Part shown: piece by piece, positions 11,902 through 62,756 of the stretch
Layout: the number at the start of each line of letters is the position of its first letter
Position numbering within the stretch: position 1 is the first letter of the stretch
Origin: an uncultured Pelagibacteraceae bacterium
GTDB lineage: Bacteria; Pseudomonadota; Alphaproteobacteria; Pelagibacterales; Pelagibacteraceae
NCBI GenBank assembly: GCA_902524955.1
Contig: CABZEY010000001.1
Location: forward strand, 62,001 to 126,000
Reading direction: 5' to 3'
DNA length: 64,000 nucleotides
Program-made: the position numbers and the translations under genes
Notes under the pieces: model-generated
What the model saw: the letters and a program-made list of their open reading frames with translations, nothing else
What the model was told of the DNA's origin: nothing
Database searches by the model: none

Positions 11902-12642
11902 ATGCCTAAAAAGACAAAAACCAAGTTAAAAAAAAATTTTAAAAAAAAAAAAGCTGTTAAAAAACTCGTAAAAAAAGTATCTAAAAATAAAAGTGTAAAA
12001 AAAAGTTCTAAAGGCAAAAAAACTAATTCAAAAAAAGATGCTTTAGAAAAAAAAACTACTCAATCTTTAAATCTTAAACCAACTCAACAAAATGATATTA
12101 TTGAAATTAAAAAAATTAAAAAACAAGAAAATGAAAAAAGAATATACAAGGTAAAAGATTATGTAATTTATCCAAAACACGGAATTGGTCAAATAATTTC
12201 AATCGATAAGCTCAATATTGCTAATATAGATGTCAGTGTATATAAAATTGAAATAACTAAGGATCGTCTTAATCTAACAATTCCCACAAACCAACAACAA
12301 CATTTAAGACCTTTATCTAGTTCAAACCAAGTGAACAAAGCTCTAGCAATATTAAAGGGCAAGGCTAAAATTAAAAGAACAATGTGGAGTAGGCGAGCAG
12401 CTGAATATGAGCAAAAAATTAATTCTGGAGATATATACCAGATCGCTGAAGTTGTAAGAGATCTTAATAAAAATACTGATATGCCAATCGATCAGTCTTA
12501 CAGTGAACGTCAGCTATTTGAAAAAGCATACGACAGGTTACTTGGAGAGGTATCTATTGTTTTAAAAATATCAGATGATGAAGGAAAGGCCAAATTGAAT
12601 AAGTCCTTAGGGAAAAAAATTGAAGAGGTTGTCAACAATTAA
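11902..12642 (+). CDS. carD: CarD-family transcription factor with Lys-rich N-terminal extension
   Basis: RNA-polymerase-binding global regulator that stabilises open complexes, notably at rRNA promoters. The CarD_TRCF/RNAP-interacting domain starts at about residue 82 with KVKDYVIYPKHGIGQI and continues with VYKIEITKDRLNLTIP; the C-terminal helical DNA-binding domain has MWSRRAAEYEQKI and SYSERQLFEKAYDRLLGE. The first roughly 70 residues are an unusual low-complexity stretch made largely of lysine with Ser, Thr and Val; typical family members lack this, giving 246 residues against about 170. It ends at a strong intrinsic terminator shared with the convergent micro-gene. Confidence 0.9.
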   Translation: MPKKTKTKLKKNFKKKKAVKKLVKKVSKNKSVKKSSKGKKTNSKKDALEKKTTQSLNLKPTQQNDIIEIKKIKKQENEKRIYKVKDYVIYPKHGIGQIISIDKLNIANIDVSVYKIEITKDRLNLTIPTNQQQHLRPLSSSNQVNKALAILKGKAKIKRTMWSRRAAEYEQKINSGDIYQIAEVVRDLNKNTDMPIDQSYSERQLFEKAYDRLLGEVSIVLKISDDEGKAKLNKSLGKKIEEVVNN

Positions 12643-12644
12643 AT

Positions 12645-12690
12645 CTAAAAAAAAACGCCCTTCTAAATTAGAAGAGCGTTTTTTTCTAAA
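12645..12690. terminator. Bidirectional intrinsic terminator
   Basis: AACGC-C-CTTCT pairs with AGAAG-A-GCGTT (one mismatch) around a 5-nt loop, flanked by an A-run of nine on the left and a T-run of seven on the right. It would end transcription of carD on the plus strand and of the 31-codon gene on the minus strand. Confidence 0.88.
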
Positions 12691-12710
12691 AAATAAAAAT
12701 TAACTAAAAT

Positions 12711-12806
12711 CTATCTTCTTTTCTTTCTTCTTTTAGCTTTCTTTTTACCTTTTTTAGCTTTCTTAGCTTTTTTAGCTTTCTTAGCTTTTTTTCTACGTTT
12801 AGCCAT
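12711..12806 (-). CDS. 31-residue Lys/Arg/Ala micro-protein, unrecognised
   Basis: Not in the ORF track. The frame from ATG (12806) to TAG (12711) encodes 31 residues: 17 Lys, 6 Arg, 6 Ala, one Gly and the initial Met. It is built from AKK repeats (KKAKKAKKAKK) flanked by Arg-Lys clusters. A strong Shine-Dalgarno site (GGGAGG, seven bases before the ATG) is unusual here, where most genes lack one. A perfect -35 box lies upstream and a terminator just downstream, so it looks like a real, independently expressed gene. The composition suggests nucleic-acid binding, like histone H1-type or AlgP-type tails or a ribosome-associated peptide. No family can be assigned. Confidence 0.7.
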   Translation of the reverse strand: MAKRRKKAKKAKKAKKAKKGKKKAKRRKKRR

Positions 12807-12813
12807 CTCCGTT

Positions 12814-12820
12814 CCTCCCT
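12814..12820 (-). promoter_or_regulatory. Strong Shine-Dalgarno site of the micro-gene
   Basis: AGGGAGG on the minus strand, seven bases before the ATG at 12806. It decides the start and supports translation of the 31-codon frame. Confidence 0.8.
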
Positions 12821-12834
12821 TTAAAGTTTGGAGC

Positions 12835-12856
12835 ATCACATAAATTATTATGTGAT
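12835..12856 (-). other. Hairpin in the leader of the micro-gene
   Basis: ATCACATAA and TTATGTGAT form a perfect 9-bp inverted repeat with a 4-base loop. It lies in the predicted 5' leader of the 31-codon gene, about 15 bases above its ribosome-binding site; it could be an RNA hairpin or a protein-binding site on DNA. Confidence 0.7.
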
Positions 12857-12894
12857 TCGTTATTAATAAACTTAAAAACTAATTCGTTATTAAT
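12855..12894. repeat. Pair of 13-bp direct repeats upstream of the micro-gene
   Basis: ATTCGTTATTAAT occurs exactly at 12855-12867 and 12882-12894, start-to-start distance 27 bp. The upstream copy (relative to the minus-strand gene) abuts the -35 box and occupies the promoter spacer; the other falls near or after the expected transcription start. The arrangement looks like a tandem operator. Confidence 0.7.
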
Positions 12895-12899
12895 GTCAA
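12894..12899 (-). promoter_or_regulatory. Consensus -35 box (TTGACA) of the micro-gene
   Basis: Perfect TTGACA on the minus strand about 90 bp before the ATG at 12806. The matching -10 is not obvious (TTTAAG at 17 bp or TAAGTT at 19 bp). The rest of the 12.90-13.00 kb region is AT-rich with no feature I can support. Confidence 0.5.
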
Positions 12900-13003
12900 A
12901 CGTTTAAAATTTAAAATTAATTACAAAAATTTTTTTTCAATTGAAAGTTTAAATATAAAAAAATAAAAAAGTTAAAAAAAGTTAATGTTTTCAATGTTTT
13001 TAA

Positions 13004-14692
13004 TTAATTTTTGTAAAAATTTTCTAAAATATTTTTATATTTTAATTTAATTTTGTGTCTTCTTATTTTCATTGTTGGTGTTAATAATTCATTATTAATA
13101 GTAAATTCTTCACTTATTACATAAAATTTTTTTATTTTTTCTATTTGCATAAGTTCTTTGTTTGTTTCTTCTATTATATCTTTAATTTTTTTATCATCTC
13201 TTACAAAATTTTTATTTAAAACAAGCAAACAAACTAAAAATTTTTTATTATCACCATCTACATATGCTTGATCGATTTCATTATGTAAACAAAGTAAATT
13301 TTCAATCTTGGAAGGAGAAATATTATCTCCACCAACACTAACAATAATATCTTTTTTTCTATCTGTGATTTTCAAATATCCATCAGGGTCTATTTCTCCG
13401 ATATCACCAGTATGCAACCAATCATTTTTAATTACTTCTTTCGTGGCTTCACTATTATTCCAATAACCTAACATCACATTTTCCCCTTTTACTAATATCT
13501 CGCCATCATCAGCTAATTTTACCAAATTGTTTGAAAATATAATCCCAACTGTGTCAATTTTAATTTTATTGACTGGATTGCAAGAAACGACTGGAGATGT
13601 TTCAGTTAAACCATAACCTTGTAAAGTTTTAAGTCCTAAAGAATTAAGAAAAATACCTACATTTTTATCTAACGGTCCACCACCCGAAACAAATGCTTTT
13701 AAATTTCCTCCAAAATTATTAATAATTTTTTTTCTGACTAAATTATTTAAAATACTATTTAATATTTTTTCTATAATTGTAAGTTTATTCCCAGTAAATT
13801 CCTTTTTACCTAATTCTATTGTTTTAAAAAAAAGCTTTCTTTTAAAACTTGAAGCTTTATTTGCTGTACTTAACATCTTATTATAAAGATTATTATAAAA
13901 TCTAGGTACAGCTGTAAGAATATGAGGCTTTGCAATTTTGATATTTTCTAAAAGTTTTTCTATAATCGGTGAATAATAAACTTTGGCGCCTAGAGATATT
14001 TGCACAAATTGAACAGTATGTTCATATGAGTGTGATAAAGGTAACCATGTTAAAAATCTTGGAGATTGGACATTTAATTTTTCGACTAAATTTTTTGCAT
14101 CTTCACAATTTGCCAGAATACCACCGTGGCTTAAAACTACACCTTTTGGTGTACCCTGAGTTCCAGAAGTATAGATTATACATGCGGGATCTTTTCTATT
14201 ACATTTACAATTTATAATATCGCTGCCATTATTAATATTTTGAAAATTTTCTGTATTAGTTATCGCCTCAAAACCTATAACAAACTCAAAGCTAAAATTA
14301 ATTTTATTTGCCGCATCTAATATTGTTTTGTGTAATTTCCTATTTGAAACGATCAATCCTTTAGGTTGACAATCATTTAATACAAATTCAAAATCTTTCT
14401 GAGTATAAGTTGTGTAATTAGGTACAGTGATAGCTCCTGTTCCTAAAATTGCTAAATCACTTATCATCCACTCAGGTCTACCCTCTGATACAAGCATAAC
14501 TCTATCTCCTTTAACAACACCTTTATTTTTTAAAAAAATAGATATTGAAATAACCTTCTCTGTCACGTCTTGCCAACTAAGTGATTTCAAAGATTTGTCA
14601 TCATTTATTGAGTGTAAGAAATTATTTTTTTGAAATTTGTCACTTTGCGTTTGAAAAAGCTCATATAAATTTTTGTAATTTTTAAAGTTCAT
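13004..14692 (-). CDS. Long-chain fatty acid-CoA ligase (AMP-forming)
   Basis: Activates fatty acids to acyl-CoA by way of an acyl-adenylate. At 562 residues it is a full-length ANL-superfamily enzyme. The AMP-binding loop IIYTSGTQGTPKGVVLSHGG is at about residue 170; GYGLTETSPVV and the hinge-region DWLHTGDIGEIDPDGYLKITD (split: HTGDIG, DRKKDI) follow; the C-terminal region has GGDNISPSKIE. It resembles the eukaryotic-like FadD15/long-chain group more than E. coli FadD. The start lies four bases downstream of the tRNA-Leu 3' end, so it may share that promoter. Confidence 0.88.
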   Translation of the reverse strand: MNFKNYKNLYELFQTQSDKFQKNNFLHSINDDKSLKSLSWQDVTEKVISISIFLKNKGVVKGDRVMLVSEGRPEWMISDLAILGTGAITVPNYTTYTQKDFEFVLNDCQPKGLIVSNRKLHKTILDAANKINFSFEFVIGFEAITNTENFQNINNGSDIINCKCNRKDPACIIYTSGTQGTPKGVVLSHGGILANCEDAKNLVEKLNVQSPRFLTWLPLSHSYEHTVQFVQISLGAKVYYSPIIEKLLENIKIAKPHILTAVPRFYNNLYNKMLSTANKASSFKRKLFFKTIELGKKEFTGNKLTIIEKILNSILNNLVRKKIINNFGGNLKAFVSGGGPLDKNVGIFLNSLGLKTLQGYGLTETSPVVSCNPVNKIKIDTVGIIFSNNLVKLADDGEILVKGENVMLGYWNNSEATKEVIKNDWLHTGDIGEIDPDGYLKITDRKKDIIVSVGGDNISPSKIENLLCLHNEIDQAYVDGDNKKFLVCLLVLNKNFVRDDKKIKDIIEETNKELMQIEKIKKFYVISEEFTINNELLTPTMKIRRHKIKLKYKNILENFYKN

Positions 14693-14696
14693 TTTG

Positions 14697-14779
14697 TGGT
14701 GGGCGAAAAGGGAGTCGAACCCTTAAGGTTTCCCGGCGGATTTTGAGTCCGCTGCGTCTACCAATTCCGCCATTCGCCC
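14697..14779 (-). tRNA. tRNA-Leu (anticodon CAA)
   Basis: The minus strand reads GGGCGAATGGCGGAATTGG then TAGACGC, the typical class II leucine tRNA 5' half. The anticodon arm is GCGGA-CTCAAAA-TCCGC, so the anticodon is CAA (reads UUG). A short variable arm is followed by GGGTTCGACTCCC (T arm), the acceptor strand TTCGCCC, discriminator A and an encoded CCA. Total 83 nt. Confidence 0.95.
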
Positions 14780-62644: not shown

Positions 62645-62756
62645 ATTTCCTTTTTTTACTCCCAGCAGCAATCGCACTAGTGGGCGAAACCTCGCTGACT
62701 AGTGTTGATCTCTCTTATTAAGAGACACCAGAAAAAGACTACCTTTTCCTTGGAAG
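62645..62756 (-). ncRNA. Structured 5' leader of ffh
   Basis: The roughly 112-base leader, predicted from the upstream promoter, contains a hairpin CACTAGT...ACTAGTG (7 bp) capped by GCGA-GGTT-TCGC with a 2x2 internal loop, and a second hairpin TCTCTT-AAT-AAGAGA; then GCTGCTGGGAG and the AAGGAAATATG start region. From memory, a candidate structured ffh leader was reported from SAR11 bacteria and is in Rfam; I cannot verify that this is the same element. Confidence 0.6.

Follow-up and report, generated by a model that had tools for sequence, protein, structure and literature searches.

A polycationic microgene convergent to carD

A 31-codon frame on the minus strand of the window (the whole 64 kb stretch of DNA that was analysed) runs convergent to carD and encodes a polycationic microprotein present throughout the SAR11 order. 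Judged by order-wide conservation, purifying selection and an excess of Lys and Arg (K/R), this microgene is almost certainly real and protein-coding. Translation gave MAKRRKKAKKAKKAKKAKKGKKKAKRRKKRR, 31 amino acids of which 23 are Lys or Arg and six are Ala, bearing out the position and composition of the original prediction. The strong Shine-Dalgarno site and the consensus -35 box predicted with it were located as GGGAGG (12819-12814) and TTGACA (12899-12894), respectively (Table 1). The further claim of a dedicated promoter, ribosome site and terminator held in part: the -35 box and the ribosome site belong to the microgene, the -10 box is weak and weakly conserved across genera, and the terminator is common to carD. 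Runs of A and T border its stem (about 12647-12685), and the bidirectional arrangement recurs in relatives at 86 of 86 readable loci.

As a chance control, the whole 64 kb window was resampled 15 times under a first-order Markov model and the maximum of each resampling was taken. The K/R count in a 31-residue ORF stretch reached maxima of 10-14 in the resamplings vs. 23 in the microgene. The next most K/R-rich stretch of the window was the N-terminal tail of the carD product with 17 of 31 residues.

Table 1. Coordinates of the microgene, its signals and the neighbouring carD in the window.
Feature	Position	Strand	Basis and conservation
carD, convergent neighbour defining the locus	11902..12642	+	Pfam CarD_C and CarD_TRCF_RID
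Bidirectional terminator stem	12656..12678	both	Predicted fold; common to microgene and carD
Polycationic microprotein CDS	12711..12806	-	ATG at 12806, TAG ending 12711; 86/86 readable orthologue loci, 85 intact; pN/pS 0.14
Shine-Dalgarno GGGAGG	12814..12819	-	Read from sequence; GGGAG or GGAG ahead of the start in nearly all orthologues
CUCC, possible anti-SD	12830..12833	-	May pair with the Shine-Dalgarno region; some genera only
5' leader hairpin ATCACATAA/TTATGTGAT	12835..12856	-	Predicted fold; pairing kept in relatives
Invariant hexamer CGAATC	12854..12859	-	86/86 loci; predicted mRNA 5' end; leader written from AACGAATC at 12861
Weak -10-like box TTTAAG	12871..12876 (about)	-	Read from sequence; 17 nt past -35
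-35 box TTGACA	12894..12899	-	Read from sequence; TTGAC in 86/86 loci

Conservation across the SAR11 order

The carD gene was located in 147 genomes from the window's family and in a further 41 from the sister family. The DNA 3' of carD was read in a large subset of these genomes, yielding 86 loci with enough contig. Orthologues were identified by synteny with carD instead of peptide similarity. BLAST-type searches fail on low-complexity sequence, and for that reason a direct search with the 31-aa peptide matched just 3 of 61 genomes. A K/R-rich frame convergent to carD and preceded by a Shine-Dalgarno site was present at all 86 readable SAR11 loci, which span 14 genera and two families (11 genera of the window's family and three of the sister family). 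Conservation in close relatives, on which the original prediction had been staked, was confirmed, with the frame intact and without stops at 85 of the 86 loci. The exception, L078, is apparently frameshifted within a homopolymeric run of A, which may be a sequencing error. A further four loci (L014, L098, L099 and L106) were left out of the count as their contigs end too early. In the last three, which belong to the sister family, the contig ends at most about 80 nt past carD, where the repeat-rich microgene would sit. These contig ends and the L078 frameshift look like assembly or sequencing effects of repeats. Among named Pelagibacterales records, a set that overlaps the genome set so that some genomes were counted in both, the microgene was found at 16 of 17 carD loci and the remaining locus was cut by a contig end.

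The microgene was absent from all 91 other alphaproteobacterial carD loci (63 in named records and 28 further ones). The only K/R-rich frame among the 28 was located directly 5' of carD, in the same orientation, in a non-SAR11 genome (L134) and looks like a CarD N-terminal tail, not the microgene. As far as sampled, the microgene is specific to the SAR11 order. A class-wide search with an 85-aa protein of the sister family returned no significant match, and the combined leader and Shine-Dalgarno pattern matched 14 genomes of the class beyond the genus; no K/R-rich frame followed it in any of these. Viral contigs held no exact match of the one pattern searched, a narrow test of phage carriage. 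Within the genus (eight genomes), the K-A repeat pattern was confined to the microgene locus where present. One genome of the genus, G007, with a contamination estimate of 6%, carried two differing carD-microgene loci on two contigs (L003 and L004/L006), probably two strains in one bin.

Selection on the coding sequence

Selection on the microprotein is strongly purifying. In 21 independent near pairs of microgenes, 40 synonymous changes on 532 sites were counted vs. 23 non-synonymous changes on 2189 sites (single changes), giving a pN/pS of 0.14 (binomial p=3e-14). Across 124 overlapping pairs, pN/pS was 0.087. The codon substitution analysis of orthologues, with its mainly synonymous change, agrees with the functional, protein-coding gene that had been proposed. 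Changes between A and G numbered 30, 19 and 6 at codon positions 3, 2 and 1, respectively; a merely purine-rich RNA would scatter them evenly over the codon positions. The length of the coding sequence took 22 different values from 63 to 300 nt.

Few cells in the sea are as abundant as SAR11 bacteria, and few genomes are as streamlined as theirs. A gene under strong selection throughout an order of such genomes is unlikely to be dispensable.

Composition and length of the microprotein

Across the order, the microprotein consisted of 56-86% K/R, plus Ala. In the window's family it comprised 20-58 aa with 50% K, 23% R and 16% A, and in the sister family 60-99 aa with 49% K, 25% A, 10% R and 7% P, arranged in KKAAPKKK repeats. 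A fairly constant MAK(K/R)RKKA start was followed by a freely varying middle, and N-termini such as MEELKVIFAKA occurred in the sister family. Composition was thus conserved while sequence, length and repeat number varied. The charge ranges from about +15 to more than +50, with acidic or hydrophobic residues nearly nil, and a chain of this composition is expected to be disordered in solution. The microproteins of both families are probably orthologues, given their common place, leader motif and composition, a relationship that sequence comparison cannot prove.

A Pfam search with the microprotein returned no domain and NCBIfam no meaningful match. In the PDB sequence search, the 31-mer was unmatched and the 85-aa form retrieved only L29 at an insignificant E of 0.52; low complexity makes these family and PDB searches weak. 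Gene callers apply length limits that many of the forms only just reach or do not reach, and the 85-aa forms are probably already annotated as genes. At this tiny size, the microgene escapes reliable detection by ordinary gene finding. Routine proteomics would miss the product as well, because trypsin fragments a peptide that is three-quarters Lys and Arg.

The 5' leader

The leader that carries CGAATC is the most conserved element of the microgene, is practically confined to it and had gone unremarked in the original prediction. The spacing from TTGAC to CGAATC was 37-42 nt at all 86 loci and 39-41 nt at 84 of them. With the transcript start placed from the promoter, CGAATC would sit at the 5' end of the mRNA. 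Two kinds of predicted leader hairpin were distinguished. In the first, present in most genera, the stem is formed by CGAATC and either GATTCG or GATTTG, with a variable loop between them. The second, which the window's genus shares with a few others, is longer and built from ATCAC and the bases that follow. For the second kind, compared over 12 distinct sequences, 100% of the cells were paired, G-U pairs were tolerated and two pairs were altered on both sides (A-U to U-A and A-U to G-C). For the first kind, compared over 20 sequences, 92.5% of the cells paired, the 5' arm was nearly invariant and covariation was no better than in shuffles. CGAA lies mostly outside the helix in the second kind and is still invariant, so that the primary sequence itself seems constrained.

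The varying spacing of the arms and the tolerated G-U pairs favour an RNA hairpin, and a dimeric DNA operator appears less likely. The conserved leader points to a short mRNA that carries its own control element in cis. AACGAATCAC was found once in its own genome, and the palindrome, searched for in 61 relatives, matched in 11 genomes, in 10 of them at the microgene. A general regulon built on the leader motif was discarded on the latter count. Masking of the Shine-Dalgarno site was likewise rejected as a universal mechanism, as CUCC is absent from many genera; the predicted pairing of the site was about 0.69 in the window's leader and near zero in many genera without CUCC. With Rfam 15, no match to the leader was obtained: its three hits in the window lay elsewhere, and a permissive scan of 12600-13010 gave none near the cut-off. 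The main text of Meyer 2009 (PMC2704228) makes no mention of carD, lysine or a small protein.

Proposed function and alternative readings

Of the roles first suggested for the microprotein (DNA compaction, RNA binding or ribosome association), DNA compaction is somewhat favoured: the microprotein is more likely than not to be nucleoid-associated and DNA-binding, a minimal polycation resembling the tail of histone H1. The free variation in length, repeat number and residue order favours a generic unstructured polycation over a ribosomal protein, and the features that were kept (charge, composition, start, stop and leader) match the needs of such a polycation. The microgene would be transcribed from its own sigma-70-type promoter into an mRNA of about 0.2 kb, which would open with the conserved AACGAAUC hairpin and end at the terminator common to carD. 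The microprotein would bind nucleic-acid backbones without sequence preference, with chromosomal DNA as the most likely target, alongside HU/IHF. It would neutralise charge and help to pack the nucleoid, and its synthesis may be autoregulated through the leader. HU/IHF-family genes were present in 13 of 13 genomes tested; the microprotein would therefore add to these proteins, not replace them, and their presence counts somewhat against a nucleoid role. A more specific version is rather doubtful, namely that a core protein of the whole order consists of a free histone-like tail only, down to 20 residues, and that its synthesis is controlled, by the protein itself or by a dedicated partner, via the single-copy invariant 5' hairpin. 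If true, the microprotein would be a nucleoid protein miniaturised to the extreme, with autoregulation built in.

The features shared with H1-like proteins are a K/A(/P)-rich low-complexity chain without a folded domain and a length that varies by repeat number. No homology to a named H1-like family was detected in Pfam, NCBIfam or PDB, tests which low complexity makes weak. The resemblance is one of composition, which can arise independently. No H1-like protein as short as the 20-24 aa forms is known to us, and the size of these forms is near that of small ribosomal proteins. The histone-H1-like Hc2 of Chlamydia (hctB) is lysine-rich and varies in length by lysine-rich pentamers (PMC2848022). 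Like the microprotein, it is built from repeats, varies in length by repeat number and needs no conserved fold. Hc2, however, is a protein of the chlamydial developmental cycle with 165-237 aa, whereas the microprotein has 20-99 aa in free-living bacteria and homology is not demonstrable. The KPAA C-terminal tail of Pseudomonas AlgP and the tail of PhaF are K/A/P-rich and H1-like, comparable to the KKAAPKKK repeats of the sister family, and AlgP KPAA peptides bind DNA in vitro (PMC9239181). AlgP differs in having a predicted helical N-terminal domain of 124 aa ahead of its long tail; the microprotein is a tail only.

It counts against the DNA reading that a polycation would have affinity not only for DNA but also for RNA, rRNA and polyphosphate. 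Possible but unlikely is a small basic protein associated with the ribosome or rRNA, lying in rRNA grooves and aiding assembly or stability in the manner of bTHX, bS22 or eL41. These proteins share with the microprotein a size of 20-35 aa, seen in most genera, and very high K/R, and the fairly constant start would suit such a role. Their sequence and length are largely fixed, unlike the 20-99 aa and variable middle of the microprotein, and a nearly fivefold length range across the order fits poorly with fixed rRNA contacts. The PDB search gave no significant match to a ribosome chain, and the microprotein was not found outside the order. Considerably less probable is a counter-ion that binds polyphosphate or RNA and organises storage granules or condensates in the way of the AlgP tail. 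AlgP, with its H1-like KPAA tail, does associate with polyphosphate granules and space them (PMC9239181); it has a separate folded domain, however, which the microprotein lacks, and there is no granule gene at the locus.

Two further readings make the peptide secondary or accidental. A small regulatory or dual-function RNA as the principal product, with its 5' CGAAUC acting in trans, would account for the invariant 5' element with its hairpin, the short predicted transcript and the strong terminator. This reading is nevertheless improbable in view of the strong purifying selection on the protein, the concentration of changes at third codon positions and the retention of the Shine-Dalgarno site and start throughout. 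A chance frame in AT-rich, purine-rich DNA has next to no probability: AT-rich DNA commonly contains short, low-complexity frames, but order-wide conservation already refutes this origin, and purifying selection and 23 K/R vs. a Markov maximum of 14 stand against it as well. The microprotein provides a simple test of the minimum size of a chromosome-packing or RNA-binding protein.

Locus neighbourhood

The SAR11 CarD proteins, including L107 and L226, carry a Lys-rich N-terminal extension of about 62-151 residues with a K/R fraction of 0.32-0.45. This extension is encoded at the adjacent locus and has a Lys-rich, low-complexity make-up similar to that of the microprotein, but it is part of a larger transcription regulator, is encoded on the opposite strand and contains other residues, including acidic ones. 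In some genomes of the sister family, it is built from VAKKK repeats. Microprotein length and CarD tail length correlated with a rho of 0.58, a relation confounded by phylogeny and given no weight here.

The pairing of the microgene with carD persists although the upstream neighbour of the microgene differs between lineages, being a tRNA-Arg gene in some and a gene for an AMP-binding enzyme in the window. One genus of the window's family, together with the sister family, has this tRNA-Arg (anticodon CCU) beside the microgene (L025:2626-2702 and L090:2823-2899), which is perhaps the ancestral order. Known RNA elements of the window, all on the minus strand, were the small SRP RNA (856-953), an ffh leader motif (62667-62719) and tRNA-Leu(CAA) (14697-14779).
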